Origin: Claveliimonas bilis | GTDB taxonomy: Bacteria > Bacillota > Clostridia > Lachnospirales > Lachnospiraceae | Assembly (NCBI RefSeq): GCF_030296775.1 | Contig: NZ_AP027742.1 | Coordinates: forward strand, 2,356,001-2,420,000 | DNA: 64,000 nucleotides | Direction: 5' to 3' | Part shown: in pieces, positions 6,676-51,920 of the stretch | Layout of the letters: every line of letters starts with the position of its first letter | Position numbering within the stretch: the first letter of the stretch is position 1 | The notes under the pieces: model-generated | The model's database searches: none | What the model was told of the DNA's origin: nothing | Seen by the model: only the letters and a program-made list of their open reading frames with translations | Translations under genes and position numbers: made by a program

Positions 6676-6680
6676 GCACA

Positions 6681-6841: not shown

Positions 6842-6925
6842 GAGACCCGGATGTGGATAACTTCCACTGTATCTGCGAGGGCGAACCGGAAAAGATTTTT
6901 AAATTTCTCTGTTTTGCACAACGTA

Positions 6926-7449: not shown

Positions 7450-7517
7450 CACGGTACTAGTGATTTACCATATACAAACAAATTACTACATAATAATGAA
7501 TTAAACATATTATTGCT

Positions 7518-7556
7518 TTTCAGGCAAAGAAAACAATATGTTTTCTTTGCCTGAAA
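7518..7556. terminator. perfect hairpin downstream of the RiPP precursor
   Basis: Arms TTTCAGGCAAAGAAAACA at 7518-7535 and the exact complement at 7539-7556, with a 3-base loop, 63 bases after the precursor stop. No long T-run follows on the minus strand. It may act as a transcript end stabiliser or a weak terminator of the RiPP operon. Confidence 0.6.
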
Positions 7557-7618
7557 TTAATTAATTAAACATTCTAATATTACAACAAAAATATACTTTT
7601 AGCGCAGAAATAGAAAAA

Positions 7619-7798
7619 TCATGCTGTAATATTTCTGTCAATATTAGACTTCATGTTTTCACGTAAACTTTCTTTTGCAAGAGCCCACGGATATCCTCCC
7701 GGACCACAATAACAATCGCAATTGATATCACATACGCAATTCTTATACTGCTCTAATGTATTACGATTTTCTTGAATTCTTTTATTTAGTTTCTTCAT
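7619..7798 (-). CDS. Cys-rich RiPP precursor peptide (CLI_3235-class bacteriocin-like)
   Basis: 59-residue peptide, start ATG 7798 after AGGAGG (8-base spacing), stop at 7619. An N-terminal leader rich in K, N, R and E (about residues 1-20, MKKLNKRIQENRNTLEQYKN) is followed by a core with five cysteines at 21, 23, 27, 29 and 31 (CVCDINCDCYC), then GPGGYPW and a hydrophilic tail. Size, Cys spacing and position as last gene of a minus-strand operon with a SPASM radical SAM enzyme, exporter, acyl-carrier-like protein and S8 protease fit the TIGR04065-type 'CLI_3235' Cys-rich peptides. The modified residues, cleavage site and activity are not known. It is shorter than the usual ORF cutoff. Confidence 0.85.
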   Translation of the reverse strand: MKKLNKRIQENRNTLEQYKNCVCDINCDCYCGPGGYPWALAKESLRENMKSNIDRNITA

Positions 7799-7926
7799 TT
7801 CATATTCCTCCTATTTTTATAATGAATGCCTTATTATAAATAACATTATTCAAACTTCTTTAACTCTACTCCTCCTTTCCAAGAATAATTTTATGATTGA
7901 ATAATGTCATATATAGAAACAGTACA

Positions 7927-9438
7927 TTATCCTTCTCCCTGCTTGATCGATACAAATCCTCCATCAATTGCATTTAATACGACGTTTTCTGTGCCCCATT
8001 TAAGAACCTCCCCATCTGAAGTTAATCCTGTCTTTTCTAAATTGAAAACCCACACAGGAACCAACCATACTTTTTCAGGTTCTTCAAATGCATTAATGTT
8101 GGCCGCACGAATCTGTATATTTGTAACATTATATATACATTTTGTACCAGTATCCTTCAGCTCATCTCCATCGTCAGAAAGAGCGGAATACAGCAGGTGA
8201 TCTGCCAGTTTTTCCTTTATTTCATCAAAAGAAAGTAGCTTTGTGTTATTTGCAACTGTATCTATTTTCTTTGACATATTTGTCCAAGCAAATTTTTGAA
8301 CACCATCTTTCGTGATAATGATTTGAATTTTTTCGGAAGAAAATTGTGGGGCGTATACTGTTTCTGGAATTCCTTCTAGTATTTCAGGTGACCGCTGACT
8401 ATATCCCATCAAGTCTCCCAATGTACGATAAAAATAAATTGAAAATCCAACCTCATTAAAGGGATTATCTTCGTCCCATAATACCCATGTTTCTGTATTC
8501 CTATTTCCGATTGCTTTGACACAGCTGCCTACTTCAAACCCTTTTATTGATATTTTATCGAGTAAAGCCTTCGCTTCATTCAAAGCCTCCTCTTCAGATA
8601 GAGATGGTATCTCTTCCATATGTTCTTTTAATGATTTTAGCCAAGCATCATTTTTATTATTGCTATCTAAATTTCCATGAATCAAAGGCATCAGATATTC
8701 TTCATCAATAAACGTACCCTGGGAATACAGAAAATTGGTTGTGCTTCCTAATTTATCGCTATAGCTTATCGCACGGATTAAGGGGTTCTTTTCATTTTCT
8801 TTATCTATTTTGGCTGTGAAACCTAGTTTTTCGTCTGTATCATAATAATAATCACTTACTCCATCATAGAAATCTCTTTCTGTCTGTACCGGCTCCATAA
8901 GAACAGGCTTTATAGAATTCTTTGTTCCCGCTTTTTCTGGAGCTTCATCAATAAGTTGATCCATTTTACTAAGTTGATCCTGCCAATATTGAGTTGATCC
9001 TAATCCACCAGATAACGAAGCCCAAGTCCCCTCATAATTTTCCATTCTCGCTTTTTCCGATTCTAATTCATCTTTTGTCATCTTAGGATATTCATACAAT
9101 GGATTCCCATCTGAAAAATAATCGCATAATTTCTCCAACAATTCATTGGTCAATACTGATTGTTCATAAACATCTACAGGTGTATTGTATATTTCTGGTA
9201 TCTGTGGAGAATAATCTGCTTCTAAAGTAACAAAACCATCGCTTCTTTCAATCTTTTCGTGCCAATGATCAGGAATCTGCAGATCTTTTGGTACATCGTC
9301 ATCTTTTTCCAGAATGCTTTCTTTCGGAATCCCCTCTGATCGGTCAACAACAATTTCTTCTTGTGGCGTTTTAGCACATGCCATTAATCCAGAACTTAAA
9401 CATAGCAAACAAACCAAAATATATGTTTTGTTCTTCAT
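7927..9438 (-). CDS. DUF6034-like secreted lipoprotein of the RiPP locus
   Basis: 503-residue predicted lipoprotein. A signal peptide ends in the lipobox LMAC (lipidated Cys at about residue 21), so the protein is anchored outside the membrane. The rest is hydrophilic with no catalytic motif I recognise. The start PDHWHEKIERSDGFVTLEA resembles the DUF6034 family of Clostridia; this is from memory and unconfirmed. It lies 16 bases after the S8 protease gene and is followed by the precursor. A broken copy of its 3' end lies at 2505-2730 beside an ABC efflux operon. It could be an immunity or sensing component, but nothing in the sequence decides this. Confidence 0.75.
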   Translation of the reverse strand: MKNKTYILVCLLCLSSGLMACAKTPQEEIVVDRSEGIPKESILEKDDDVPKDLQIPDHWHEKIERSDGFVTLEADYSPQIPEIYNTPVDVYEQSVLTNELLEKLCDYFSDGNPLYEYPKMTKDELESEKARMENYEGTWASLSGGLGSTQYWQDQLSKMDQLIDEAPEKAGTKNSIKPVLMEPVQTERDFYDGVSDYYYDTDEKLGFTAKIDKENEKNPLIRAISYSDKLGSTTNFLYSQGTFIDEEYLMPLIHGNLDSNNKNDAWLKSLKEHMEEIPSLSEEEALNEAKALLDKISIKGFEVGSCVKAIGNRNTETWVLWDEDNPFNEVGFSIYFYRTLGDLMGYSQRSPEILEGIPETVYAPQFSSEKIQIIITKDGVQKFAWTNMSKKIDTVANNTKLLSFDEIKEKLADHLLYSALSDDGDELKDTGTKCIYNVTNIQIRAANINAFEEPEKVWLVPVWVFNLEKTGLTSDGEVLKWGTENVVLNAIDGGFVSIKQGEG

Positions 9439-35775: not shown

Positions 35776-36948
35776 TTAATAATACTTCACTGTCACACTT
35801 TTCCCCAAATGTTCCGCACATTCTTTCAGCTGTTCCACAAGATTCATCCGAACACTCAGATCAAAAGGAAGATTAGAGCTTTGATGTGCCGGATTCAAAG
35901 ATTTCCCCACAAAGAGGTGAAGATCCGTACATTCTTCGATTAAAAGCTTGGCCAGCTTTGCCGCTCCGCTTTTTCCGTCCAGTTCATCGAAAAATTCTTC
36001 ATCAAAATCATCCTGCTCATATCTTTTCAAAAGTCCCAATGCTTTACCGATGGTAAGAACCCCTTCCGTCACCAGATCCAGACCTTCGATCGTCGCTGTA
36101 GGCGGAACGCTCGGATCTGCATAATCCAGTGATGTAATGATCTCCTTTTTCAGGACTCTGGCAGCAATATTGGCACTTGTACCTCCGCAGACAACTTTTT
36201 TCCCTTCGTTTTTCATAAAATCATGAATCACCTGTTCATCGTCCTCTTTATTGGTTGGAGGACCGGTAAAAATATTCACAATTCTCCGTTCGATCACACG
36301 AGTCACTGCTACTGTCGTATCATCTCCCGGCTTCTCGCCATACAGCTCAAAGCAGGCCTGCGACAGCATTGCGGCAAGCCGGGATGCGGATAATGTCTCT
36401 TTCGTGCATTTCAGTGTATATTCAGCCATGCTTTCCCATGTCCATCCGAAATTCAAAAGCTCGCCGACTCCCGCATAGATCACGCCGTCGCTCATCAGCA
36501 CAAAGCAGTCGTTTAACTGTACCTGAAACCGATATTCCCTGATCTTCTTGTCCTCGATCATCCGTTCCTCATATGGATAATCCACGATTTTTTTATCCCG
36601 GATAAAAACGCAGGAAGGATTGTCAAATTCTACCAGATACGCACTTCCATCATGGAAAATCTGCAGAATACTGAAGGTGGCATAGGCAACTTCTCTCACT
36701 TTACAGACCGGCAGCGTACTCGCGATGGTCTCCACACAGGAATCAATGGCCGCTCCATTCAGAAGCATGGTGCCGAGGATTTTAGACGTCAAAGTTGCCA
36801 GAATATTGGCTTTTACTCCGCTTCCCATGCCATCTGCCAGGATCACAATATCTGAATCCTTTGTTTTCAGAATCTCAACCTTATCTCCACACAGCTCCTC
36901 ATGGTGTTTATTCAGACTCTTCCACGCTATATCAACACGAACGCTCAT
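35776..36948 (-). CDS. SpoIIE-type PP2C serine/threonine phosphatase
   Basis: 390-residue phosphatase with PP2C metal-site motifs (ILADGMGSG near 40 and GDDTTVAV near 215) and a ~170-residue C-terminal extension of unknown fold. The start (MSVRVDIAWKS) overlaps the stop of the HydS-like hydrogenase gene upstream (36950), so the two are coupled. Known sensory [FeFe] hydrogenases are often paired with such phosphatases, so it probably converts a redox or H2 signal to dephosphorylation of a target. The target is unknown. Confidence 0.88.
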   Translation of the reverse strand: MSVRVDIAWKSLNKHHEELCGDKVEILKTKDSDIVILADGMGSGVKANILATLTSKILGTMLLNGAAIDSCVETIASTLPVCKVREVAYATFSILQIFHDGSAYLVEFDNPSCVFIRDKKIVDYPYEERMIEDKKIREYRFQVQLNDCFVLMSDGVIYAGVGELLNFGWTWESMAEYTLKCTKETLSASRLAAMLSQACFELYGEKPGDDTTVAVTRVIERRIVNIFTGPPTNKEDDEQVIHDFMKNEGKKVVCGGTSANIAARVLKKEIITSLDYADPSVPPTATIEGLDLVTEGVLTIGKALGLLKRYEQDDFDEEFFDELDGKSGAAKLAKLLIEECTDLHLFVGKSLNPAHQSSNLPFDLSVRMNLVEQLKECAEHLGKSVTVKYY

Positions 36949-36949
36949 A

Positions 36950-38668
36950 TCATTCTTCCTCTTCAAATAAAATGGAATCCCTAAGCTTTGACAGCGTTAC
37001 CTTTGTCTCTGCCGTTGTTTCTCCAAGAAGCCCTGCAATCTCCTGCGCAACCATCATCTGTTTGTCAATGACTTTCTGCGCCATCTCCACTGTCTCCATC
37101 TTCAAATGGTAATGCTGTTCCCTTGCCTTTTCTTCTTTTGTCACATCCTGGTAAGTCACAAGAACGGATTCCAGATGGTCAATATAAATAATGCTCTCTA
37201 CTACCATCATTTCCGACGCATCCAGGCTGACTTTCTTTCGTATGATCTGTTCCTTTGTATCCAATACCTGAACGATATCCTCCGGCTCAATAAATTCAAA
37301 AATATACCGCTCCAGCGCCTCTTCTCTGGATACCCCCAGCATCTTCTGGGCTTTTTTATTACATTCCCGGATCCGAAGCTCTTTATCAATGATCAGTATC
37401 ATACTGGGCGTCACATCCATAACAATATTGGACATAGACTCTGCCTGTGCAACTGCATGGGGCAGACACATGCCGATCTCTGCTTTTTTCTGAAAAACTG
37501 CTTTCGCCTTTGCACGACAGCTTGGATAACCGCATGCCCCGCAGTTCAGCTCATCTTCTTTGGTGTATTTTCCCATAGCGTGCAGCACTTCTTCCATCTG
37601 CTCTTCTGTCGGCTCCATATCTGTCACACGGCGGTCCATAAATATTTTCTCCATGTCCACGCCGCTGCCATCGATCTCACTTGCTTCCTCCCGGTAAACC
37701 GCCTGATCCTCTACGTCCATCTTTGCTCGGACCACAGACCGCTGCCATTTATCGGATGCAGGCCCTTTTATGCACCCTCCTTCACAGACATTCACCTCAA
37801 AAAAGCAGTTTTCAATCTCATTCTTTTTCAATTCATCAAAAAGTTCCATACATGCAGTAAGTCCGTCTACAGAAACTTTATAGTAATTATCCTCCACGGA
37901 ACTTGCCCGAATGGATTTGATAATACCCCCTCCTACAGGATACAGCTGATTTACTTTCGGACTCGGGTTGCCAAGAGGCTCGCTTGGACACTCTTTCGGG
38001 TTGATTCCTTCCCTTTCCCACCACTTTACAATTTCTTCAAAGGTAAGAATAGCGTCAATAGCCCCGCTTACTCTTTCATCACCTTCCGCTTCCTCTTTTT
38101 TGGCAATACAGGGACCCAGAAATACAACTTTCACATCATCCCCGTAAATCTGCCGGATCAGGCGTCCATGAGCGATCATAGGCGATACCACCGGCGCCAT
38201 CAAAGGAACAAGCTCAGGGTAATATTTCTCGATCAGATCGTTTACACTGGGACAGCATGTTGTGATAATGTTGGTCATCTTTCCCTCTTTTAAGAGCCGG
38301 CGATATTCTTTTGTTACCAGGGCCGCTCCTTCCGCCGTTTCTCTCACTTCATAAAATCCAAGCTTTTTCAGGGCCGATACAACCTGTCCCGGCTTGTCAT
38401 AGTCCAGCACTCCCAGATAGGAAGGCGCAATAGAAATGATAACCTTCATATTCTGCCGAAGATAGCCTACAACCCGGTCCATATCACTTGCAAATTTCTT
38501 CGCATTCTGGGGACAGACTTCCAGACAATGCCCGCAGTTGATACAGTGGTCTTTCATAATATGAGCCTGGGCATTCTGCACGGAGATTGCCTTTACCTCG
38601 CAGTGACGTACACATTTATAGCAATGTCTGCAGCTTGCATCCTTAAAATCTATAACCCGCATTCTCAC
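36950..38668 (-). CDS. sensory [FeFe]-hydrogenase-like protein with PAS domain (HydS type)
   Basis: 572 residues. Two [4Fe-4S] ferredoxin motifs (CRHCYKCVRHC, CINCGHCLEVC) occur at about 13-52. The H-cluster domain follows with TTCCPS (L1), GPCIAKK (L2) and VNVCEGGC (L3), so all four cysteine ligands are present, although L1 lacks the usual TSCCPxW form. Then come a four-cysteine Fe-S motif (CGACGYPSC...C, about 385) and a PAS domain (about 415-530) with a coiled tail. This layout matches group C sensory hydrogenases. It probably senses H2 or redox state and signals to the phosphatase encoded next. It overlaps neighbours on both sides. Confidence 0.9.
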   Translation of the reverse strand: MRMRVIDFKDASCRHCYKCVRHCEVKAISVQNAQAHIMKDHCINCGHCLEVCPQNAKKFASDMDRVVGYLRQNMKVIISIAPSYLGVLDYDKPGQVVSALKKLGFYEVRETAEGAALVTKEYRRLLKEGKMTNIITTCCPSVNDLIEKYYPELVPLMAPVVSPMIAHGRLIRQIYGDDVKVVFLGPCIAKKEEAEGDERVSGAIDAILTFEEIVKWWEREGINPKECPSEPLGNPSPKVNQLYPVGGGIIKSIRASSVEDNYYKVSVDGLTACMELFDELKKNEIENCFFEVNVCEGGCIKGPASDKWQRSVVRAKMDVEDQAVYREEASEIDGSGVDMEKIFMDRRVTDMEPTEEQMEEVLHAMGKYTKEDELNCGACGYPSCRAKAKAVFQKKAEIGMCLPHAVAQAESMSNIVMDVTPSMILIIDKELRIRECNKKAQKMLGVSREEALERYIFEFIEPEDIVQVLDTKEQIIRKKVSLDASEMMVVESIIYIDHLESVLVTYQDVTKEEKAREQHYHLKMETVEMAQKVIDKQMMVAQEIAGLLGETTAETKVTLSKLRDSILFEEEE

Positions 38669-38904
38669 TCCTCCTTTCCTATGATCTTAAAAAAGAACTC
38701 ATCCACCTCTTCCGGCCCGATATGGTAAATCTCATCATCCACTTTCACACTGACTTTCCTGGAGCACTTTCCCATGCAAAAAGATCCTCCCAGTTCAATC
38801 TGTTCATCCATTCCCTGTTCTTTTACCAGTTCCTGTATCCTTTTTACTACAGTCTCTGATCCCCGCAAATGACAGGAACTTCCAATACAAATTTTAATCT
38901 TCAT
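38665..38904 (-). CDS. thioredoxin-like [2Fe-2S] ferredoxin domain protein
   Basis: 79 residues with the four cysteines of the NuoE-like fold (CIGSSC near the start, then FCMGKC near 43-48). ATG 38904 follows a GGGGGATACCGG region. It overlaps the HydS-like gene by 4 bases (ATGA), so it is the first gene of the sensory module and likely supplies or takes electrons from it. Confidence 0.85.
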   Translation of the reverse strand: MKIKICIGSSCHLRGSETVVKRIQELVKEQGMDEQIELGGSFCMGKCSRKVSVKVDDEIYHIGPEEVDEFFFKIIGKEE

Positions 38905-39101
38905 CCGGTATCCCCCTTTATTTTTCGGGCTTTTATCATAGTATATCATCCGCTTTGTCCCCCTGCAACGGAAACAGCAATATACGCCACAATAATAGTG
39001 TCTGATACCGCTTGCTTTTTGTCCTGCTCAGATTTACAATAAAATCAGTTTACAAAAACACATTGGTTGTACTTATGTAACATACAAAAGAGGTGGGGAA
39101 C

Positions 39102-41134: not shown

Positions 41135-42979
41135 ATCGAGTAGGAGGTAGGCGATTATTTCGCCTACCGACCTCTCACACCACCGTGCGTACCGTTCGGT
41201 ACACGGCGGTTCAATCAACTTAACAAGTAACCCGCCTTTCGGCGTAGTAGTCTTCCATAGATACAAGCCCAAACTTAGCCAGTCTCTCTTTACTGATTCC
41301 AATGTGGAGATTCCAGCTCCTGCACACTCTGGCATATCCCTTTGCATACGAAATACCATGTGCCGCACGCCGTGGCAGTCCGAGCTTGATAAGGTTCTTT
41401 TCCCTGTTCTTAGGTGTTTTCCAGTGTTTCCAGATACACATCCGCAATCGAAAGCGGATATGCTTATCGAGCTTTCCACATAACTTTTTCATGCTTCCGA
41501 TTTTGAAGTAATTAATCCATCCTCGTATCAGTTGGTTGAGTTTCTCCACCTTATAGGTGTTGCTGACTCCCCAACTCCTACATGTAAGTTTCTTCATTTG
41601 CTCCTTAAACTTTTCCACCGCTTTCGTGTGGGGTCTGGCTTTATATCCTTTGGCAAATGAGTCATAGTAAAATCCAAACCCAAGATACTTTATCCCTTTT
41701 GGTTTATCTACCTTGCTCTTTTCGGCATTCACTTTGAGTCCGAGTTTATTCTCTATAAATCTCGTCACACTCTTCATGACCCGTTCCGCCGCCTGCCTGC
41801 TCCCGACCATGATGATTAGGTCATCGGCATACCTGACAAAATCCAGCCCTCTTGCTTCCAGTTCCTTGTCCAGCTCGTTAAGCATGATATTCGCTAATAA
41901 TGGCGAGATATTCCCTCCCTGCGGTGTGCCGACTATTGTATCTTCATACTCATCGTCTATCATCACTCCGCTGACTAGAAACTTTCTTACCACTGATATC
42001 ACATCCCCGTCCTTTATGGTTCGTCCGATGATTGTCATCAGCTTATCATGGTCTACCGTATCAAAGAACTTCGCAAGGTCAATGTCTACTATCCAGCTGT
42101 GTCCGTCATTCATCATCTCCAATGCCTTTAGGACTGCCTGCTGTGCGCATCGGTTTGGTCTGAATCCGTAACTATGGTCATGAAACTGCTCCTCAAATAT
42201 CGGAGTCAATACCTGTGCTACCGCCTGTTGTACAAAACGATCAACTACCGTCGGCACCCCCAGGTTCCTTACTCCTCCGTCTGGCTTCGGTATCTCCACT
42301 CTGCGTACCGGCTGCGGCTTATATTTTCTCCTCCGTAGCTGTTCCATGATGTTCTCGCCGTTTTCCGAAAGGTATGGACCGAGTTCTTCCACGGTCATTC
42401 CGTCTACCCCTGCCGCTCCTTTGTTCCTGACGACTTGCAGATATGCCGCATTAAGATTGTCCTTACTCAATATCTGCTCCATTAGACTACTTATGTCCAT
42501 GCGTTGTTTCCTTTCTGCCCCTTTTGCCTTTTCCGCCTTTGAAGTTATCGACAGGCGTTGCTCCGGCTACGAAGTGGAACGTACTTCAACTGATTGATTG
42601 TTCAGCCCTTCGCTCCATTCCCATTACAGGAACTTCCTCACTACTATGGCTTCTGCTGACTTCTCACTGTTCGTTGTTACTACGGCTGATGAAACCGCCT
42701 GTGAGACCTCCCCAGTTAAGGTGCGTATTCTTTCCCTCCATGCACCTGCCACATTTACTCGTACTTCCGGCAACCTTTTGGACTTCAGTGCCTTTTGCCA
42801 CCTTATCCGCATTTCCGAGCCTTATATGCGGTTCCTGTCCGTCAGGTCAGAGGTTTGCTTACAGCTTCTTTCAGATTCCGTCTCACGGCGGACACCCTTG
42901 CTGTTCGGCTATGTGCTTCGTCGTTGCCTACGCGCACTTGGGACTTTCACCCATTAGAATACGCCCATGCTGGGCAAAC
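41135..42979 (-). mobile_element. class C (IIC) group II intron with maturase
   Basis: About 1.85 kb on the minus strand. The 5' end (GTTTGCCCAGCATGGGCG... GGTGAAAGTCCC) begins at about 42979, directly after the terminator hairpin of hydA. The 3' end has a domain V-like hairpin (GAACCGCCGTGTACCG ... CGGTACGCACGGTGG, about 41176-41208) and a domain VI hairpin ending in CTACTCGAT at 41135. Insertion behind a rho-independent terminator is the known habit of class C introns. Exact ends are approximate, and the 5' GTTTG differs from the common GTGYG. Confidence 0.85.
41220..42500 (-). CDS. ltrA: group II intron reverse transcriptase/maturase
   Basis: 426 residues: reverse transcriptase with YADD (FVRYADDLI, about 222-225), the SPLLANIMLNELD segment and a maturase (X) domain at the C-terminus (GWINYFKIGSMKK). 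No HNH endonuclease domain follows, as in class C introns, which retrotranspose without one. The ORF lies within the intron, and both RT and intron core look intact. Confidence 0.95.
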   Translation of the reverse strand: MDISSLMEQILSKDNLNAAYLQVVRNKGAAGVDGMTVEELGPYLSENGENIMEQLRRRKYKPQPVRRVEIPKPDGGVRNLGVPTVVDRFVQQAVAQVLTPIFEEQFHDHSYGFRPNRCAQQAVLKALEMMNDGHSWIVDIDLAKFFDTVDHDKLMTIIGRTIKDGDVISVVRKFLVSGVMIDDEYEDTIVGTPQGGNISPLLANIMLNELDKELEARGLDFVRYADDLIIMVGSRQAAERVMKSVTRFIENKLGLKVNAEKSKVDKPKGIKYLGFGFYYDSFAKGYKARPHTKAVEKFKEQMKKLTCRSWGVSNTYKVEKLNQLIRGWINYFKIGSMKKLCGKLDKHIRFRLRMCIWKHWKTPKNREKNLIKLGLPRRAAHGISYAKGYARVCRSWNLHIGISKERLAKFGLVSMEDYYAERRVTC

Positions 42980-43051: not shown

Positions 43052-44803
43052 CTAATTCACAGTCCTCTTTACATAAGTTGTATGCAGATATTCGTGAGCC
43101 TTATGGCTTCCCGGTTCGCCCAGATATTCCTCATAAAGCTTTTTGATCGCCGGATTTTCGTGGGATTTCCGGATTGATTTTGCCTGATCATTCCGATAGA
43201 GCACTCCTGCCCGGATGGCACGTACATCTGTAAAGTTTCTCACATCGCCGGATACCTGCGGCTGTCCGCCTCCATTGACGCATCCGCCCGGACATCCCAT
43301 GATCTCTATGAAATGATAGCTGGCTTCTCCGGATTTCACCTTATTAAGCAGATTCCTTGCATTGTTAAGTCCTGAAGCAACTGCCACTTTAATGTCCATT
43401 CCGGCCACATTGTAGCTGGCCTCCTTGATTCCTTCTGTGCCGCGCACATCGGTAAATTCCAGATTGGCAAGTTCTTCACCGGTCAGAACTTCCACTGCAG
43501 TACGAAGAGCGGCTTCCATTACTCCTCCGGTTGCGCCGAAGATCACACCTGCACCTGTAGATTCGCCCATCGGATCGTCAAATTTCTCATCCGGCAGCGC
43601 AGTAAAGTCAATGCCGCACCTTTTGATCAGCCGGGCCAGTTCTCTTGTGGTGATGGCAATATCCACATCCGGAACTCCCGCTGCATTCTGATCATCTCTT
43701 CCGATTTCAAATTTCTTTGCCGTACAGGGCATTACACTGACGGACACAATCTTTTTCGGATCGATTCCTTCTTTTTCAGCAAAATATGTTTTCAGCATCG
43801 CCCCGAACATCTGCTGGGGTGATTTGCAGCTGGACAGATTTTCTGTCATATCCGGGAAATAATGCTCACAATATTTGATCCATCCCGGTGAGCAGGAAGT
43901 GATCAGCGGAAGTACGCCGCCGTTTTTCACGCGATCCAGAAGTTCTGTAGCCTCCTCCATGATCGTAAGATCGGCTGCCCAGTCCGTATCAAATACCTTA
44001 TCAAATCCGATCCTTCTAAGTGCTGCAGCCATCTTTCCTTCTACATCTGTTCCCATGGGATATCCAAACTCTTCTCCAAGTCCCGCTCTTACGGAAGGAG
44101 CAGTCTGAACCACTACATATTTATCCGGATCTGCAATCGCTTCTATGATCTGATTTGTATAATCTTTTTCATACAATGCCCCTGTAGGACAGACTGCAAT
44201 ACACTGTCCACAGGATACACAACTGGTCTCCCCCAGCCCCATATCAAATGCGGATCCGATAAATGTATCAAATCCCCGGTTGTTGGGTCCGATCACACCG
44301 ATCCCCTGGGTCTTTTCGCACACTGCCACACAGCGCCGGCACAAAATACATTTGTTGTTGTCGCGGATCATATGAGCAGCAGAATCATCCAGCTCATAAT
44401 GATTGGTTTTTCCTTCAAAATAGTTCTCATCCTCTACTCCGTACTCCCTGCAGAGCTGCTGAAGCTCGCAGTTTCCGCTCCTTACGCATGAGAGACATTT
44501 CTTATCGTGATTGGACAAAAGAAGCTGGAGCGTTCTCCTTCTTGACTTGATCAGTTTTGGTGTGTTGGTGTACACTTCCATTCCTTCCGTCACCGGATAT
44601 ACACAGGCTGCCACCAGGTTTCTGGCTCCCTTGACTTCCACCACACACATACGGCATGCACCGATCTCATTGATTTCCTTCAGGAAACACAAAGTCGGTA
44701 TCTTAATTCCTGCCAGATGTGCCGCTTCAAGAATGGTGGAGCCGGCTGGAGCGGATACTTCAAGACCATTGATTTTTAAGTTTACGTTTTCCATATTCTC
44801 CAT
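43052..44803 (-). CDS. hydA: [FeFe] hydrogenase catalytic subunit HydA (NADH/ferredoxin-linked, bifurcating type)
   Basis: 583 residues. N-terminal [2Fe-2S] domain (C39-C50-C53-C67 region), a His-Cys3 [4Fe-4S] motif (HDKKCLSCVRSGNC), two [4Fe-4S] ferredoxin motifs (CILCRRCVAVC, CVSCGQCIAVC), then the H-cluster domain with TSCSPGW (L1), MPCTAKKFE (L2) and MGCPGGCVNGGGQP (L3), and the small-subunit-like tail. It makes or oxidises H2. Fusion layout and neighbours hydB and hydC indicate the trimeric electron-bifurcating enzyme that uses NADH plus reduced ferredoxin. It starts 6 bases after hydB. Confidence 0.96.
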   Translation of the reverse strand: MENMENVNLKINGLEVSAPAGSTILEAAHLAGIKIPTLCFLKEINEIGACRMCVVEVKGARNLVAACVYPVTEGMEVYTNTPKLIKSRRRTLQLLLSNHDKKCLSCVRSGNCELQQLCREYGVEDENYFEGKTNHYELDDSAAHMIRDNNKCILCRRCVAVCEKTQGIGVIGPNNRGFDTFIGSAFDMGLGETSCVSCGQCIAVCPTGALYEKDYTNQIIEAIADPDKYVVVQTAPSVRAGLGEEFGYPMGTDVEGKMAAALRRIGFDKVFDTDWAADLTIMEEATELLDRVKNGGVLPLITSCSPGWIKYCEHYFPDMTENLSSCKSPQQMFGAMLKTYFAEKEGIDPKKIVSVSVMPCTAKKFEIGRDDQNAAGVPDVDIAITTRELARLIKRCGIDFTALPDEKFDDPMGESTGAGVIFGATGGVMEAALRTAVEVLTGEELANLEFTDVRGTEGIKEASYNVAGMDIKVAVASGLNNARNLLNKVKSGEASYHFIEIMGCPGGCVNGGGQPQVSGDVRNFTDVRAIRAGVLYRNDQAKSIRKSHENPAIKKLYEEYLGEPGSHKAHEYLHTTYVKRTVN

Positions 44804-44809: not shown

Positions 44810-46597
44810 TTATTCTTTGTAAATAGCACCAAAACGACATTTCTCCATGCAGGCGCCGCATTTCACACATTTCTCCTGATTGATCACATGCGGCTCTTTT
44901 ACCTTGCCGATGATAGCGTCGTTCGGACAGGTTCTTGCACACAGAGTACATCCTTTACATTTATCTGCATCAATCCGGTACTGCAGAAGATCCTTACAGA
45001 CTCCTGCCGGACATTTCTTGTCTACAATATGAGCGATATATTCGTCCCGGAAATACCGCAGGGTGGAAAGAACCGGATTGGGAGCTGTCTGCCCCAGCGC
45101 ACACAGAGAATTGGATTTCAGATGTTCTGCCAGTTCTTCCAGGCGATCGAGATCCTCCATGGTTCCCTGACCCTTGGTGATCTTTTCCAGAATTTCCAGC
45201 ATGCGCCTTGTTCCCACACGGCACGGCGTACATTTTCCACAGGATTCATCCACTGTAAATTCCAGGAAGAATTTAGCGATATCCACCATACAGGTATCTT
45301 CATCCATAACGATCAGTCCGCCGGATCCCATCATGGAACCAATGGCGATCAGGTTATCGTAATCAATAGGAACATCAAAATGCTCTGCCGGGATACAGCC
45401 GCCGGACGGTCCTCCGGTCTGGGCCGCTTTGAATTTCTTGCCTCCCGGGATTCCTCCTCCGATCTCCTCTACAATCTCCCGGAGTGTAGTTCCCATTGGA
45501 ATCTCCACAAGTCCCGTATTGTTTACTTTACCGCCGAGGGCAAAAACTTTTGTTCCTTTGGACTTCTCCGTTCCCATAGATGCAAACCATTCCGGTCCGT
45601 TCAAAATGATCTGCGGAATGTTTGCGTAAGTTTCCACATTGTTAAGGATCGTCGGCTTCTGGAACAATCCTTTCAGCGCCGGGAACGGCGGACGGGGACG
45701 AGGCTCCCCTCTGTTTCCTTCAATGGATGTCATAAGAGCAGTCTCTTCGCCGCATACAAAGGCACCGGCTCCAAGACGAAGCTCAATATCAAAATCAAAT
45801 CCGGTTCCGAAAATATCTTTTCCCAGAAGACCGTATTCTCTTGCCTGACCGATGGCAATGTTCAAACGCTCTACCGCGATCGGATATTCTGCACGCACAT
45901 AGATATATCCCTGGGATGCTCCGATAGCGTATCCTGCAATTGCCATAGCTTCCAGTACAACATGGGGATCACCTTCCAGTACAGATCGATCCATGAATGC
46001 ACCGGGATCCCCTTCATCTGCATTACAGCAGACATATTTCTGATCCGCCTCATTTGCCGCTGCAAACTTCCATTTCAGACCTGTGGGGAATCCTGCTCCT
46101 CCCCTTCCTCTAAGTCCGCTGTCCAGAAGGATCTGGATCACATCCTCCGGTTTCATCTCTGTCAGCACTTTTCCGAGCGCCTCATAGCCTCTTGTACCGA
46201 TATATTCTTCAATATTCTCCGGATTGATCACACCGCAGTTCCTAAGGGCGATTCTGTGCTGTTTCTTATAAAACTTTGTCTCCTGCAGGGGAAGCACTTC
46301 CGTTCCTTTTACTGTCTCATCATAGAGGAGACGTTTTACAACTCTTCCTTTCAGCAGATGTTCCGATACAATTTCCGGGATATCTTCCTCCTTTACCATG
46401 GAATAGAAGGAACCTTCCGGGTATACGATCATAATAGGGCCTAAGGCGCACAGGCCGAAACATCCTGTTTTCACAACGCCAACTTCATTTTCCAGCCCCT
46501 GCTTTCTGATTTCTTCTTCCAGTTTCTCTCTGATCCTCTGGCTGCCTGAGGAGGTACATCCGGTTCCTCCACAGACCAGTACATGTGAACGATACAT
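44810..46597 (-). CDS. hydB: bifurcating hydrogenase NADH/FMN subunit HydB (NuoF-like)
   Basis: 595 residues: N-terminal thioredoxin-like [2Fe-2S] domain (CGGTGC, TGCFGLC), NuoF core with NAD/FMN motifs GRGGAGFPTGLKW and GEETALMTSIEG, [4Fe-4S] site CGKCTPCRVG ... C, and two C-terminal ferredoxin motifs (CKGCTLCARTC, CVKCGACMEKC). It oxidises NADH and is the likely site of flavin-based bifurcation. ATG 46597 follows AAAAGGAGGTTACAT; an upstream in-frame extension has no ribosome site. Confidence 0.96.
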   Translation of the reverse strand: MYRSHVLVCGGTGCTSSGSQRIREKLEEEIRKQGLENEVGVVKTGCFGLCALGPIMIVYPEGSFYSMVKEEDIPEIVSEHLLKGRVVKRLLYDETVKGTEVLPLQETKFYKKQHRIALRNCGVINPENIEEYIGTRGYEALGKVLTEMKPEDVIQILLDSGLRGRGGAGFPTGLKWKFAAANEADQKYVCCNADEGDPGAFMDRSVLEGDPHVVLEAMAIAGYAIGASQGYIYVRAEYPIAVERLNIAIGQAREYGLLGKDIFGTGFDFDIELRLGAGAFVCGEETALMTSIEGNRGEPRPRPPFPALKGLFQKPTILNNVETYANIPQIILNGPEWFASMGTEKSKGTKVFALGGKVNNTGLVEIPMGTTLREIVEEIGGGIPGGKKFKAAQTGGPSGGCIPAEHFDVPIDYDNLIAIGSMMGSGGLIVMDEDTCMVDIAKFFLEFTVDESCGKCTPCRVGTRRMLEILEKITKGQGTMEDLDRLEELAEHLKSNSLCALGQTAPNPVLSTLRYFRDEYIAHIVDKKCPAGVCKDLLQYRIDADKCKGCTLCARTCPNDAIIGKVKEPHVINQEKCVKCGACMEKCRFGAIYKE

Positions 46598-46610
46598 ATG
46601 TAACCTCCTT

Positions 46611-46991
46611 TTATTCTTTACTGATTTTTTCCGCTGCAAGCGTATATTTTGTTACAACCTGCCCGCCCTTAAGATGCAGGCGGAACACTTCCATTGCCTT
46701 TTCCGGCGTCATTTTCACATAAGTAACCTTTTCTTTGCCCGGCTCCATCACCTCAACAATCGGCTCATACTGACAAAGTCCGATGCATCCGGTCTGGGTT
46801 ACGTTAATATTATTTAATCCTTCCTCCTGTACAGCATCTGCCAGCGCTGCCAGAACCGGGCGGGCGCCGCTTGCGATTCCGCAGGTTGCCATACCCACAA
46901 CTACTCTTGTCTGTGTCGCATCTTCGGAGCGGAAGCCGACTTTTCCCTGCATTTTCTCTCTAATTGCCCGTAACTCTTCCAGAGATTTCAT
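46611..46991 (-). CDS. [2Fe-2S] thioredoxin-like ferredoxin of the hydrogenase operon
   Basis: 126 residues, with MATCGIASGARP and TQTGCIGLCQYEP, the pattern of small NuoE-like ferredoxins found in hyd operons (three cysteines are visible, one fewer than usual). Probably an electron carrier between HydC/HydB and partners. Located between the HATPase and hydB genes with short gaps. Confidence 0.87.
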   Translation of the reverse strand: MKSLEELRAIREKMQGKVGFRSEDATQTRVVVGMATCGIASGARPVLAALADAVQEEGLNNINVTQTGCIGLCQYEPIVEVMEPGKEKVTYVKMTPEKAMEVFRLHLKGGQVVTKYTLAAEKISKE

Positions 46992-47024: not shown

Positions 47025-47582
47025 TTACAAATTTTTCCCTCCGCTTACTTCCCTGTGATTTTCCTTAAGATAATCCATAATGAATGCGGAAACTTCCGGG
47101 GAATGAAGCGGCACATCGCCTAACATTTCTTTCATCTCTCTTGTATCGAGGACAAATTCCCGGCCATCGCACGCATAACGATACCGAAAATCCACTTCCT
47201 CATGGTATACCATCAGATTATGTACAGTCATACTCATATCGCCAAGAGGCATTCTGTCAATACTGGACAGGACAAACCGGGCGGTAAGGACCGTCCCTTT
47301 CCCTTTCTTGGATGTAATCTGAAAGCTCCCTCCTGATATTTCCGCTGCCTGCTTAAAAAACGGAACACCAAGCCCTACCTTGCGCGTTGTCCGGGTAGTA
47401 AAAAAGGGATCCGTCACTCTTTGCACCTGTTCAGGGTCCATACCGGATCCGTTATCTTTGATGGTAATACTAAGAGAATCTTCTGCAGTACTGACTGCAA
47501 CTTCTATTTCGACAAAAGCTGCTCCCGCACGGACAGAATTTTCCGCCGTATCAAGAACATGCAATGATATTTCCGGCAGCAT
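47025..47582 (-). CDS. HATPase (histidine-kinase-like ATPase) protein in the hydrogenase operon
   Basis: 185 residues. GHKL ATPase boxes are visible: N-box HVLDTAENSVRAG, G1 IKDNGSGMD, F-region FFTTRTTRKVGLGVPF. There is no dimerisation/phosphoacceptor histidine domain, so it is not a complete sensor kinase. The C-terminal ~60 residues are of unknown fold. It is embedded between hydC (3-base gap) and the [2Fe-2S] gene. Proteins of this kind accompany hydABC in other Clostridia; a regulatory or assembly role is inferred only. Confidence 0.85.
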   Translation of the reverse strand: MLPEISLHVLDTAENSVRAGAAFVEIEVAVSTAEDSLSITIKDNGSGMDPEQVQRVTDPFFTTRTTRKVGLGVPFFKQAAEISGGSFQITSKKGKGTVLTARFVLSSIDRMPLGDMSMTVHNLMVYHEEVDFRYRYACDGREFVLDTREMKEMLGDVPLHSPEVSAFIMDYLKENHREVSGGKNL

Positions 47583-47585: not shown

Positions 47586-48080
47586 CTATTCGTACTTTGC
47601 CAAAATATCGTCAATATCATCTACTTTTAACCTGCCATATACATCGTCATTGATGGTCATGACAGGGGCCAGACCACAGGCACCGATACAACGGCACGCA
47701 TCCAGGGAAAACTTACCGTCGGGGGTACATTCTCCTCCCACGATCCCCAGCTTTTCCATCAACTTATTGTAGATGTCGCCGGAGCCCTTTACATAGCATG
47801 CCGTGCCAAGACAGACGGAAATCTTATATCTGCCCTTGGGACTTAACGTAAACTGAGAATAAAATGTCGCAACGCCATAAATTTTTTCCAGCGGTATTCC
47901 CGTTTCATTGGAAATGATCTTCTGCACTTCTATCGGAAGATATCCGTAAATATCCTGCGCCTTTTGCAGGATAGGCATAAGCGCACCTTTTTCATCTTTC
48001 ATTTCGCGGATCACTTCCAGCAGTGCCTGTTCCTGTGCTTCAGTTCCGCGAAACGGAACTGATGTTTTCTTAGAAAGCAT
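47586..48080 (-). CDS. hydC: bifurcating hydrogenase subunit HydC (NuoE-like)
   Basis: 164-residue NuoE homolog. The thioredoxin-like [2Fe-2S] site has CLGTAC and CRCIGAC. The helical N-terminus (LPIEVQKIISNETGIPLEKIYG) is typical. It is the first gene of the minus-strand operon hydC, HATPase, [2Fe-2S], hydB, hydA. Confidence 0.95.
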   Translation of the reverse strand: MLSKKTSVPFRGTEAQEQALLEVIREMKDEKGALMPILQKAQDIYGYLPIEVQKIISNETGIPLEKIYGVATFYSQFTLSPKGRYKISVCLGTACYVKGSGDIYNKLMEKLGIVGGECTPDGKFSLDACRCIGACGLAPVMTINDDVYGRLKVDDIDDILAKYE

Positions 48081-48305: not shown

Positions 48306-48334
48306 TTGATTTGCCATATTCTCAATGCTATACT
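48306..48334 (+). promoter_or_regulatory. promoter of the DRTGG/hydrogenase-like/PHP operon
   Basis: TTGATT (48306-48311), 17 bases, TATACT (48329-48334), about 50 bases before the first start codon. Confidence 0.6.
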
Positions 48335-48385: not shown

Positions 48386-48739
48386 ATGATAATCAGAGAA
48401 ATCCAATCGCTCCTGAAGGCCCGTATTCTGGAGGGCGAAGCACAGCTTGACCACACTGTCTCCGAAGCCTTTGCCTCGGATATGATGAGTGATGTGCTGG
48501 CTTATGCTTCTCCCCATTCCGCCCTTCTCACCGGCCTTTGCAATCCGCAGGTCATACGTACTGCAGAAATGATGGATATGCCGTGCATTATTTTTGTCCA
48601 GGGAAAATCCCCCGGCTTAGAGGCTCTTGCTCTTGCGGGAGAAAGGGATATCTGTATTTTGCAGACATCTTTGGACATGTTCTGCGCATGCGGTATCCTG
48701 TATACTCACGGACTGCCTGGAGGTGGTGCGCATGAGTAA
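48386..48739 (+). CDS. DRTGG domain protein of the hydrogenase-associated operon
   Basis: 117 residues, a stand-alone DRTGG-type domain (LLTGLCNPQVIRTAEMMDMP ... CIIFVQGKSP). DRTGG domains are small regulatory domains seen in pyruvate/phosphate metabolism proteins and beside [FeFe] hydrogenases. ATG 48386 follows GCAGGAGGTTCCT. It overlaps the next gene by 8 bases. It may bind a ligand and control its partners; the ligand is unknown. Confidence 0.78.
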   Translation: MIIREIQSLLKARILEGEAQLDHTVSEAFASDMMSDVLAYASPHSALLTGLCNPQVIRTAEMMDMPCIIFVQGKSPGLEALALAGERDICILQTSLDMFCACGILYTHGLPGGGAHE

Positions 48740-49154
48740 AACACTGACATTTGAATATCAGGTTCCGGGCGATGATTTTACCCGCGCCGGCGAAGCAAGC
48801 AGCAGCGTAAAGAATAAGCTGAAAATGATGGGTGTAGACAGCACAGTGATCCGCAAAGTGTCCATTGCCATGTATGAAGGAGAGATCAACATGGTGATCC
48901 ACGCAAACGGCGGTACAATCAAAGTACTGGTCTCTGATGACAACATCCGGATCATCCTTGCCGACACCGGCCCCGGCATTCCCGATGTGGAAAAAGCCAT
49001 GCAGCAGGGATACTCTACCGCTCCGGAGGAAGTTCGTTCTCTTGGCTTCGGCGCCGGAATGGGACTTCCCAATATGAAGAAGTATTCTGACGATATGAAG
49101 ATCGACACCATAATCGGAAGCGGAACTACCGTCACCATGGATATCCATATGTAA
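48732..49154 (+). CDS. RsbW/SpoIIAB-like ATPase (anti-sigma factor type)
   Basis: 140 residues. GHKL boxes: N-box AMYEGEINMVIHANGG, G1 LADTGPGIPD and GAGMGLPNMKKYSDD. Single-domain proteins with this layout act as anti-sigma or anti-anti-sigma kinases. No sigma or STAS partner is encoded nearby, so the target is unknown. ATG 48732 lies within the end of the DRTGG gene, showing coupled expression. Confidence 0.83.
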   Translation: MSKTLTFEYQVPGDDFTRAGEASSSVKNKLKMMGVDSTVIRKVSIAMYEGEINMVIHANGGTIKVLVSDDNIRIILADTGPGIPDVEKAMQQGYSTAPEEVRSLGFGAGMGLPNMKKYSDDMKIDTIIGSGTTVTMDIHM

Positions 49155-49196
49155 GAGATTCATCAAAAGGACTGACAGGAAGGAGGCACTTCAGCT

Positions 49197-50579
49197 TTGG
49201 ATCATAACGATAAATTTATAAATTCTGTAAAACTGGATAAGGACGCCTGCACCGGCTGCATCAACTGCATCAAATACTGTCCCACCCAGGCAATACGGGT
49301 ACATAACGGCAAGGCTTCCATAAATCCGGATTTCTGCGTGGACTGCGGACGGTGTATCCGCTACTGCCCCAACCATGCCAAAATACCTGTATCTGACTCC
49401 CTGGAGGAGATCACACATTATAAATACACAGTGGCTCTCCCCGCCCCTTCCCTCTATGCGCAGTTCAACAATCTGACAAACATAGATATTGTGTTAAATG
49501 CCCTGATCTCTATGGGATTTGATGATGTTTTTGAAGTGAGTGCGGCAGCGGAGCTTGTTTCGGAAATGACAAGAAATTACATTGCACAGCATCGGGATGA
49601 AGCTCCTTTCATCAGTACAGCCTGTCCCACCATTGTCCGTATGATCCGGGTTCGCTTTCCTACGCTTATCCCCCGTCTTCTGCCCCTTAAGCCTCCTGTG
49701 GAGATCGCAGCCGAGATTGCCAGAAAAAAGGCAATGGAAAAGACAGGACTTCCCGCTTCGGATATCGGGATCTTTTTCATTTCTCCCTGTCCTTCCAAGG
49801 TAACTTATGCCAAAGCACCTCTTGGCATTGAAAAAAGCCAGATTGACAAGGTATTGGCGATCAAGGACGTTTACCCCGTCCTCTTAACTCATATGACCCA
49901 CGATGAGTCCCGCCTGAAGCCGCTTGCCGCCTCCGGCCGTATCGGAATTGGCTGGAGCAACAGCGGGGGAGAGGCAGCCGGGCTGATCACAGACAATTAT
50001 CTGGCAGCTGACGGCATTATGAACGTCCTTCGCGTCCTGAGCGATCTGGAAGATGAAAAATTTTACGGTCTGAAGTTCGTGGAACTGAATGCCTGCAACG
50101 GCGGCTGTGTCGGCGGCGCTTTGACGGTGGAAAATCCCTACATTGCCACTGCAAAGACGAAGAAGCTGCACCGCTATCTTCCTGTGTCCCGCACCCACTC
50201 CAACATGTATCCCGATGTGGATTATCACTGGGACAGCTATGTGGAATACGAGCCTGTATTCCGGCTTGGGAAGACATTCCGGGAAAGTCTGGAAATGATG
50301 GGCATGGTAGAAGAGCTGACAGAACAGCTCCCCGGCCTGGACTGCGGCTCCTGCGGTGCGCCCACATGCCGTGCTCTGGCCGAAGATATTGTAAGGGGCG
50401 AGGCAGACAGAACCGACTGTATCTATGTATTTTTTGAATATATCGGAAATCTCTCCCGGGAAATTTCCTATACGGCGCGGAATCTTACTTCTTCTGAAGA
50501 CGGATCTGAAATTTCCAGGGAAGACCTGGAAGACTATGTAAAAAAACTGGAGGCAGAGTTAAAGAGAAAGGATGTGTAA
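49197..50579 (+). CDS. [FeFe]-hydrogenase-like protein of unknown function (group D-like)
   Basis: 460 residues: two ferredoxin motifs (CTGCINCIKYC, CVDCGRCIRYC), a hydrogenase large-subunit domain with STACPTIV (L1), SPCPSKV (L2) and NACNGGCVGG (L3), and a C-terminal Fe-S motif (CGSCGAPTCRALAEDI). The core cysteines that hold the H-cluster remain, but surrounding residues differ strongly from catalytic HydA, and there is no PAS domain. It likely senses or relays electrons rather than turning over H2. The start is TTG 49197 with GGAGG 11 bases upstream. It is flanked by two DRTGG genes. Confidence 0.87.
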   Translation: MDHNDKFINSVKLDKDACTGCINCIKYCPTQAIRVHNGKASINPDFCVDCGRCIRYCPNHAKIPVSDSLEEITHYKYTVALPAPSLYAQFNNLTNIDIVLNALISMGFDDVFEVSAAAELVSEMTRNYIAQHRDEAPFISTACPTIVRMIRVRFPTLIPRLLPLKPPVEIAAEIARKKAMEKTGLPASDIGIFFISPCPSKVTYAKAPLGIEKSQIDKVLAIKDVYPVLLTHMTHDESRLKPLAASGRIGIGWSNSGGEAAGLITDNYLAADGIMNVLRVLSDLEDEKFYGLKFVELNACNGGCVGGALTVENPYIATAKTKKLHRYLPVSRTHSNMYPDVDYHWDSYVEYEPVFRLGKTFRESLEMMGMVEELTEQLPGLDCGSCGAPTCRALAEDIVRGEADRTDCIYVFFEYIGNLSREISYTARNLTSSEDGSEISREDLEDYVKKLEAELKRKDV

Positions 50580-50581
50580 AA

Positions 50582-50911
50582 ATGGCTTCTGTACAGGATC
50601 TTATCAATTCCGGAATATTCCATACCGAAAATCCGGGGAGAAGCGAACAGCCGATCACCCGTGTATTTTGCTGCGACCTCTTAAGCGTCGCCATGGGGAA
50701 AGCGCCTTCCGGCTGCGCCTGGGTCACAGTCATTGGCAACCGGAACACCCTGGCTGTCGCTTCTCTTGCAGATGTATCCTGCATCGTCCTTGCGGAAGGG
50801 GCCTCTTTTACAGAGGACGATATGCAGTGTGCCAAAGAGCAGGAAATCGCAGTATTTTCCACGGATCTTCCTGTCTTTGAAGCCGCGCTGAAGGTTCATC
50901 AGCTGTTATGA
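50582..50911 (+). CDS. second DRTGG-like domain protein
   Basis: 109 residues, similar in plan to the first small protein (VFCCDLLSVAMGKAPSG, ASLADVSCIVLAEG, IAVFSTDLPVFEAA). It begins 2 bases after the hydrogenase-like gene and overlaps the PHP gene by 4 bases. A paired regulatory role with the first DRTGG protein is an inference. Confidence 0.75.
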   Translation: MASVQDLINSGIFHTENPGRSEQPITRVFCCDLLSVAMGKAPSGCAWVTVIGNRNTLAVASLADVSCIVLAEGASFTEDDMQCAKEQEIAVFSTDLPVFEAALKVHQLL

Positions 50912-51633
50912 TCCCGCTCTATTATGACCTGCACATCCATTCCTGCCTGTCGCCCTGCGGAGATGACGATATGACCCCTTCCAACATCACCGGCATGGCC
51001 GCAGTCAAGAATCTGGATGTCATTGCACTTACGGATCACAATTCCTGCAGGAACTGCCCTGCTGCCATAGAGGCTGGCAAACGTCTGGGAATCACAGTCC
51101 TTCCCGGCATGGAACTCACTACATCGGAAGAGATCCATGTCCTTTTCCTGTTTGCCTCCCTCGGTCGCGCCCTTTCCTTTGACGCCTATGTGTATGAGCA
51201 TCTTCTTCCCGTAAGAAACCGCCCGGAAATCTTCGGCACTCAGCTGATCGTAGATGAAAATGACAAAGTGTCCGGATCCCTGGATAAACTTCTGATCAGC
51301 GCCACAGACATCCCTTTTGATGAAACGGGAAAGCTGGCTGACTCCTTTGGCGGCATCTGTTTTCCGGCCCATCTTGACAAGTCCTCTACCAGCCTGATCT
51401 CCAATCTGGGAGCGATCCCGCCGGACAGCACCTTTTCCTGTGCAGAACTGAAAGATATGAAAAATCTGCACCGGCTGAAAAGAGAACACCACTATCTGGA
51501 AAACTGCCGGATTCTCTCCAGCTCGGACGCCCACTATCTATGGGATATTGCAGAGCCAAACCTGCAGATCTATGCCCGTTCAAAGTCTCCTTCTGATATC
51601 TTGGAAGCACTTGGCCGCGGTGTTTTAAGATGA
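50908..51633 (+). CDS. PHP domain phosphoesterase
   Basis: 241-residue metal-dependent phosphoesterase. PHP motifs: YDLHIHSCLSPCGDDD (I), LTDHNSCRN (II), FPAHLDK (III), SSSDAH (IV). This family hydrolyses phosphate esters or dinucleotides, and the last gene of a hydrogenase-linked operon may make or remove a nucleotide signal. Overlaps the DRTGG gene start-to-stop (ATGA). Confidence 0.9.
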   Translation: MIPLYYDLHIHSCLSPCGDDDMTPSNITGMAAVKNLDVIALTDHNSCRNCPAAIEAGKRLGITVLPGMELTTSEEIHVLFLFASLGRALSFDAYVYEHLLPVRNRPEIFGTQLIVDENDKVSGSLDKLLISATDIPFDETGKLADSFGGICFPAHLDKSSTSLISNLGAIPPDSTFSCAELKDMKNLHRLKREHHYLENCRILSSSDAHYLWDIAEPNLQIYARSKSPSDILEALGRGVLR

Positions 51634-51684: not shown

Positions 51685-51714
51685 TTATCCTGTTAAAAGT
51701 AAAACTAAATACAT

Positions 51715-51920
51715 TCAGGTGCCTGTAAAGTCTGTGTGTGCAGCCTTGTACAGGATAATAGGGAAACAGGTGCAAATCCTGTACGGTCCCGCCGCTGTAA
51801 GGAAGGAGCGATTTTTATTATGCCACTGTATCTTATGCTGTGATATGCGGCAGATATGGGAAGGGAAAAACCGTGATGATCTCCAAGTCAGAAGACCTGC
51901 CTGTCTGTATGGAACTGCCG
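51715..51920 (+). promoter_or_regulatory. cobalamin (B12) riboswitch
   Basis: The conserved core GGTGCAAATCCTGTACGGTC and CCGCCGCTGTAA (51769-51800) and the B12 box AAGTCAGAAGACCTGCCTG (51885-51904) are present in the right order and spacing. It should shut off cbiMNQO expression when cobalamin is abundant. Confidence 0.93.

Follow-up and report, generated by a model that had tools for sequence, protein, structure and literature searches.

A conserved gene module with a putative group D sensory [FeFe]-hydrogenase adjoins HydABC, formate dehydrogenase and Rnf genes

What is the function of the five tightly packed genes that lie opposite the genes of a bifurcating [FeFe]-hydrogenase in Claveliimonas bilis? 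These genes occupy positions 48386-51633 of the window, by which we mean the whole 64,000-nucleotide stretch of DNA that was analyzed (assembly GCF_030296775.1, contig NZ_AP027742.1, positions 2,356,001 to 2,420,000). The original prediction described them as an operon of two DRTGG proteins, an RsbW-like ATPase, a diverged HydA relative (here called HydD) and a PHP phosphoesterase. All five open reading frames (ORFs) were found at these positions, each on the + strand. We propose, with a probability of about 0.5, that they encode a redox- and nucleotide-gated HATPase kinase which is opposed by PHP and has HydD as its sensor, and that this system exerts post-translational control over ferredoxin-NAD(H) complexes.

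The gene content was compared over 80 genome loci, 59 loci from a phylum-wide sample and 398 genomes of the phylum (L, G and f denote loci, genomes and families of the comparison sample). The five genes stand in the same order on one strand at 72/80 loci and at 40 of the 59 phylum-sample loci, a count in which fusions and contig ends were scored against the order. The median intergenic gaps along the module are -1, 23, -0.5 and -4 bp. This conservation of gene order far exceeds chance. HydD was found in 165 of the 398 genomes, PHP in 157 and both in 152 (phi 0.91). Phylum-wide searches scored the top candidates per genome only, and the presence/absence counts can contain misses. PHP was present in 152/165 genomes with HydD vs. 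5/233 without it; the sampled genomes are related, and a Fisher test of this co-occurrence is only descriptive. In three genomes (G175, G443, G336) HydD and the remaining module genes are split over two loci.

Natural fusions join the same proteins. DRTGG1 is fused to the HATPase at L164, L179 and L204, the HATPase to HydD at L184, HydD to DRTGG2 at L163, and a CBS pair to the HATPase at L187, L193, L165 and L202. PHP is fused to a second HATPase, encoded in the hyd operon, at L153, L203, L240, L241 and L248. This chain of fusions is consistent with one complex or one pathway. Order, co-occurrence and fusions together bear out the view that the five genes form one module. Because of its fusion to PHP, we count the hyd-operon HATPase as a sixth member, and the earlier suggestion that this extra ATPase belongs to the system is supported. 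It stays with the module where HydD is absent.

The identity of HydD bears directly on what the module may sense. Group D is defined by architecture and residues (PMC8163306), and HydD fits this definition; on these features we classify it as a group D (M2e) putative sensory [FeFe]-hydrogenase. It contains two ferredoxin clusters, an H-domain and a C-terminal Cx2Cx4Cx16C motif (C383/386/391/408). The N-terminal [4Fe-4S] motifs (C18,21,24,28 and C47,50,53,57) are kept in 150/151 homologues, and the H-cluster cysteines C143, C198, C300 and C304 are present in 151/151. HydD is a non-group-A [FeFe] protein with, as the original prediction had recognized, altered surroundings of the H-cluster: A142 stands at the C299 position, so that the proton-path cysteine is absent, and the M353 position is S196 (S or T in 147/151 homologues). 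The Pfam scan found no PAS domain in HydD. In the tree HydD forms a clade apart from groups A and C on a branch with SH-aLRT 100 and a length of 2.95, although long branches meet there and its deep placement is uncertain.

Three other classifications were rejected. Membership in group A is ruled out by the TIGR02512 score (90.6 bits vs. a cut-off of 405.95) and by the tree. Membership in group C (M2f) HydS was discarded because HydD has no PAS domain and the HydS of the window falls outside the HydD clade. HydD is not a degenerate pseudo-enzyme in general, since the H-cluster cysteines never vary and the [2Fe] pocket is retained by the members linked to hydrogenase. A role of HydD as a catalytic, ferredoxin-linked H2 enzyme or as an extra subunit, and not as a sensor, is hardly credible. 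The group D protein TamHydS of Thermoanaerobacter mathranii shows H2 turnover at a low activity (PMC8163306), but HydD lacks the proton-path cysteine, its [2Fe] pocket is eroded in several lineages, and its gene is nearly always embedded with HATPase and DRTGG genes. The earlier statement that the system had no assigned function is partly outdated, since group D proteins are proposed H2 sensors that undergo an H2-induced structure change; it stands insofar as the same papers state that their partners are unidentified (PMC8163306, PMC13104023).

The genomic contexts show how far the module is tied to hydrogenase. It adjoins HydABC at most loci, and a group A [FeFe]-hydrogenase accompanies HydD in 156/165 genomes, which upholds the predicted hydrogenase association. 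In f45 (L153, L203, L240, L241, L248), in f59 (L232 and L245-L247, the loci of four genomes) and at L170, L205 and L237, the neighbor is NuoE-(HATPase)-Fd-NuoF-FdhA, with no HydA. At the five loci checked, an in-frame TGA splits FdhA within the motif DHCARL-U-H[AS][PA]T, which marks the protein as a selenocysteine formate dehydrogenase (FDH); first-pass "HydA" labels of 350-360 amino acids (aa) were really the N-terminal part of FdhA ahead of this codon. At L161, L165, L202 and L180 the module runs into Rnf genes. Contexts were called with single-sequence profiles because early HydS/HydA profiles were contaminated by HydD. Modules without HydD were found at L251, L252 (f69) and L253 (f106, adjoining Rnf), and their HATPases of 305-326 aa have the size of the CBS-fused form. 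The common factor over all contexts is a ferredoxin/NAD complex that bears NuoF or RnfC (HydABC, NuoEFG-FdhA or Rnf).

The original prediction called the system dedicated to the bifurcating hydrogenase. This part fails, because the module also adjoins FDH and Rnf operons, occurs without HydD, and includes genomes in which HydD is the sole [FeFe]-domain protein. There are six such genomes, of which four, from one family, are robust. Occurrence without any [FeFe]-hydrogenase, which had been named as counter-evidence, is rare and not frequent, but the exceptions alter the interpretation. Three side observations concern these neighborhoods. The HydD-less module of L253 (positions 5000-8800) lies between Rnf genes and genes of Mrp/NBP35-like P-loop ATPases; a Rex-like redox repressor gene adjoins the module-linked NuoEF operon at L170, L236 and L249; and at L249 the module and NuoEF were found with neither HydA nor FdhA.

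Adjacency to three different FeS/flavin complexes could also suit assembly factors for NuoEF-type complexes, in which case the HATPases would be chaperones and HydD would serve as FeS scaffold; GHKL ATPases include the Hsp90-type chaperones. We regard this as very improbable. Nothing in the module resembles known FeS scaffold or maturation proteins, and nothing was found that points to the assembly role offered as an option by the original prediction. HydD is absent from 142/298 genomes with group A [FeFe]-hydrogenases and is thus not generally needed for these enzymes.

The residues around the [2Fe] subcluster differ between the contexts. In group A enzymes an A-P-S motif (A230-P231-S232 of CpI) and a lysine (K358) hold the [2Fe] cyanides. 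In the alignment to HydA, A83-P84-S85 and K201 of HydD correspond to these residues. The K201 position is Q in f59, E in G085 (Rnf), R in G108 (FDH) and E in G394, where HATPase-HydD is isolated; it is K in the other 80/87. An intact pocket (A83, P84, K201) was found in 37/38 hydrogenase-linked rows vs. 1/14 FDH/Rnf-linked rows. Pocket erosion in FDH and Rnf contexts is a strong pattern made up of few independent events. All HydD proteins retain the four H-cluster cysteines, including those with eroded pockets, and it is plausible that the eroded forms carry no [2Fe] subcluster.

The maturases were also considered. HydD is the sole PF02906 protein in G086, G286, G216 and G264 (all f59), G158 and G200. 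These six gave no HydF match, and HydG and HydE did not reach the cut-off in them or in any other of the 37 HydD genomes in which HydF was not matched. The f59 genomes are four from two genera, with completeness of 91-99%. G158 and G200 lack group A hydrogenase and maturases, yet their pocket is intact and their relatives have a group A hydrogenase; because these metagenome-assembled genomes may be incomplete, we do not use them as strong evidence. Separately, 63/298 genomes with a group A [FeFe]-hydrogenase gave no HydF match, and 28 of them have HydD and also lack HydG and HydE. The explanation is a limit of the search or else a different route of maturation.

In the window HydD, A83-P84-S85 and K201 are intact, and HydE, HydF and HydG are present in the genome. 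This protein probably carries the full H-cluster, with HydABC as the target of its module. Because relatives of the module also adjoin FDH and Rnf genes, where the pocket is decayed, the module probably controls ferredoxin-NADH enzymes generally, and not hydrogenase alone. A bolder reading is that one general, hitherto undescribed signalling module serves HydABC, FDH and Rnf, and that the "sensory hydrogenase" repeatedly became an H2-independent FeS redox sensor which kept the [4Fe-4S]H cysteines and lost the [2Fe] subcluster; we put this forward tentatively, at somewhat less than even odds.

The other components were examined for catalytic and ligand-binding features. In the window the HATPase, HydD (Fe_hyd_lg_C, FeS and Fer4) and PHP score above their Pfam cut-offs. 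The DRTGG proteins score 22.3 (DRTGG1) and 23.9 bits (DRTGG2) with PF07085, just under the gathering cut-off of 25.2, which homologues pass with 25.7 (the HydD-fused DRTGG2 of L163) and 32.0 bits (DRTGG2 of L195). The AlphaFold2 model of DRTGG1, to which the fold comparison was applied, has a predicted local distance difference test score (pLDDT) of 96.3. It matches AF1212 (2ioj; TMq 0.84, E 3.8e-08), the CBS/DRTGG region of CBS-pyrophosphatase (3l2b) and the N-domain of HPr kinase. The DRTGG assignment is marginal by sequence in the window but clear from the modelled fold of DRTGG1 and in homologues. The ATP-binding boxes of the HATPase (N, G1 and G2: E49, N53, DxGPG, GFGAGMG/GxGxGxG) are invariant or nearly so in 120 sequences. 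The metal-site residues of PHP (H9, H11, D43, H44, E69, H77, H155, D207, H209) are conserved at 99% or more in 118 sequences, and the nearest folds to its model (pLDDT 96.4) are EndoQ, RNase AM, TM0559 and Cv1693, which was solved with AMP. No DNA-binding domain was found by Pfam in the module proteins scanned, in the window and in homologues.

These features suggest the following scheme for a six-member core of DRTGG1, the SpoIIAB-like HATPase, HydD, DRTGG2, PHP and the histidine-kinase-type HATPase of the hyd operon. HydD would report H2 or the ferredoxin redox state through its FeS clusters and H-cluster, and the DRTGG subunits, together with the CBS pair in some species, would report a nucleotide. 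Both inputs would set the protein kinase activity of the SpoIIAB-like HATPase, which the PHP phosphatase would counteract. The output would be post-translational and would fall on the NADH-oxidizing flavoprotein part (HydB/NuoF or RnfC) of the neighboring complex. In lineages where the neighbor is FDH or Rnf and the [2Fe] pocket is eroded, HydD would probably sense redox state through its FeS clusters and perform no H2 chemistry. We favor post-translational control because the scanned module proteins have no DNA-binding domain and because an NADH-oxidizing neighbor that bears NuoF or RnfC is constant. The intact catalytic and binding residues of the HATPase and PHP also speak for this scheme, as does a DRTGG fold like that in the regulatory region of CBS-pyrophosphatase and in the N-domain of HPr kinase. 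It is further supported by the conserved order, the co-occurrence and the fusions, by the anti-sigma kinase SpoIIAB as the nearest HATPase of known structure, and by the sensor role proposed for group D.

Could the output be transcriptional? The SpoIIAB-like HATPase might be an anti-sigma factor or kinase that answers to HydD by partner switching and adjusts hyd, fdh or rnf transcription. The HATPase is related to SpoIIAB, which provides its only close relatives in the PDB (1til), and deletion of the group C sensor hfsB in T. saccharolyticum alters adhE expression (PMC5707799). The score with TIGR01925 (SpoIIAB), however, is 58.5 bits and falls far short of the curated cut-off of 135. The module encodes no sigma factor; no STAS or sigma partner was seen in the module or in the window-region ORFs read, and no STAS anti-anti-sigma protein among the profiled neighbors, the neighbors in other genomes not having been systematically scanned for STAS. 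The divergent promoter region has no Rex-type operator at 3 or fewer mismatches, and matches over the whole window are at chance level. We consider transcriptional control unlikely.

A nucleotide could also be the signal itself. DRTGG1, DRTGG2 and CBS would then bind AMP, Ap4A or a dinucleotide, PHP would degrade it, HydD would gate the circuit, and the HATPases would be ATP-dependent switches only. The pairing of DRTGG with CBS resembles the regulatory region of CBS-pyrophosphatase, CBS-HATPase fusions occur, and PHP lies nearest to nuclease and nucleotide-phosphatase PHPs, including Cv1693. Against this, no synthetase is encoded in the module, and the fusion partner of DRTGG1 is the HATPase and not PHP. 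As a full account we judge such a circuit rather improbable, but it may be a facet of the kinase scheme.

Several points weigh against the kinase scheme. The kinase assignment rests on homology, since there is no phosphorylated substrate and no STAS protein in the module. The closest structural neighbors of PHP have nucleic acids or nucleotides as their substrates, and for the DRTGG subunits a nucleotide is a candidate ligand only. HydD and the HATPase, with or without DRTGG1, stand apart from the other genes at L176, L182, L189 and L196. The pattern of pocket and context requires only about four changes each on the tree, and an independent-pairs test of erosion vs. context had two supported pairs and no power.

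The features of the locus are collected in Table 1. DRTGG1 overlaps the HATPase gene by 8 bp and DRTGG2 overlaps PHP by 4 bp; the HydD gene starts with TTG, preceded by AAGGAGG. The operon is divergent from a NuoE-type hydC, which is followed by the second HATPase, a 2Fe-2S protein, HydB and a group A6 HydA.

Table 1. Features of the operon and of the divergent hyd operon in the window
Feature	Position	Strand	Remarks
Promoter-like site upstream of DRTGG1	48306-48334	+	TTGATT-17-TATACT, extended TG; consensus match only
DRTGG1	48386-48739	+	117 aa; small DRTGG-fold protein, proposed nucleotide-sensing regulatory subunit
SpoIIAB/RsbW-like GHKL HATPase	48732-49154	+	140 aa; proposed kinase; HATPase_c 41.8 bits
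HydD (HydA relative)	49197-50579	+	460 aa; Fe_hyd_lg_C, FeS, 2x Fer4
DRTGG2	50582-50911	+	109 aa; second DRTGG-fold protein
PHP phosphoesterase	50908-51633	+	241 aa; PF02811 35.5 bits
HydC, NuoE-type, bifurcating hydrogenase, divergent neighbor	47586-48080	-	2Fe-2S_thioredx 173 bits
Second HATPase, histidine-kinase-type, within hyd operon	47025-47582	-	HATPase_c 59.9 bits
2Fe-2S thioredoxin-like protein, hyd operon	46611-46991	-	
HydB, NuoF-type, bifurcating hydrogenase	44810-46639	-	Complex1_51K, NADH_4Fe-4S; proposed target family
HydA, group A6 NADH-dependent [FeFe]-hydrogenase	43052-44803	-	NF040763 927 bits (cut-off 765)

Three further elements lie nearby. A second sensory [FeFe] operon at 35776-38949 (-) encodes a 2Fe-2S protein, a group C HydS with a PAS-like C-terminus and a SpoIIE-like PP2C phosphatase; it is of the HydDB class C3 type, so that a single bifurcating hydrogenase is accompanied in the window by two putative sensors of different kinds. 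A group II intron with a reverse transcriptase is located at 41135-42892 (-), just downstream of hydA. A cobalamin riboswitch (119 bits) at 51700-51918 (+) directly follows the PHP gene, ahead of cobalt/energy-coupling transport genes.

For group D proteins, which have been called H2 sensors with neither partner nor output known, the operon offers named candidates backed by fusions; a paper of 2026 calls for such interaction partners. The occurrence beside FDH and Rnf suggests a single device, common to anaerobes, for the control of electron bifurcation, which would be relevant to H2, ethanol and acetate production. HydD proteins whose [2Fe] pocket is eroded would offer a natural experiment in which H2 chemistry is taken away and the FeS scaffold kept. 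The idea of regulation is not in itself new, as work on the thermocellum bifurcating hydrogenases illustrates (PMC3492117). A search for DRTGG, PHP or SpoIIAB with hydrogenase found no paper describing the operon, with subscription papers mostly outside the search; we therefore claim novelty, provisionally, for the module as defined here, its fusions, its FDH/Rnf contexts and the erosion of the pocket.

Four known systems invite comparison. The operon HATPase shares the GHKL fold and complete N, G1 and G2 boxes with the anti-sigma kinases SpoIIAB and RsbW; unlike them it scores under the curated cut-off, has no STAS or sigma partner in the module and is fused to DRTGG, CBS or HydD in some genomes. 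The CBS-DRTGG region of CBS-pyrophosphatase (3l2b, 3l31) has the same DRTGG fold and brings CBS and DRTGG together, but here there is no pyrophosphatase domain and the regulated unit would be the HATPase. Group C (M2f) HydS proteins (TmHydS, HfsB, HydDB class C3 "phosphatase-linked") are likewise putative sensory [FeFe] proteins with an extra C-terminal FeS motif and signalling neighbors, and the example in the window (36950-38668), which comes with a SpoIIE-like PP2C, is encoded about 10 kb away. HydD differs in having no PAS domain, in forming a separate clade, and in being accompanied by HATPase, DRTGG and PHP in place of PP2C or a histidine kinase.

The closest likeness is to TamHydS (group D/M2e), which shares with HydD the domain order, the H-cluster cysteines, the absence of C299, the change of M353 to Ser, the Cx2Cx4Cx16C motif, the lack of PAS, and a position beside a bifurcating hydrogenase and a HATPase. 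HydD of L195 has 16/17 of the residues named for TamHydS (PMC13104023) at the published numbers, the next best having 11, and L195 carries the same five-gene module followed by HydABC. This makes it most likely that the characterized group D enzyme is part of the module described here. Its published neighbors are a HATPase and an "AraC" regulator, with the partners left open (PMC8163306). The "AraC" protein is probably a misnamed DRTGG2, since the gene just downstream of HydD at L195 scores 32 bits with PF07085 and encodes no helix-turn-helix. Beyond the TamHydS papers, two DRTGG proteins, PHP, a second HATPase and the CBS fusions are linked here to this sensor, together with FDH and Rnf contexts and eroded [2Fe] pockets.

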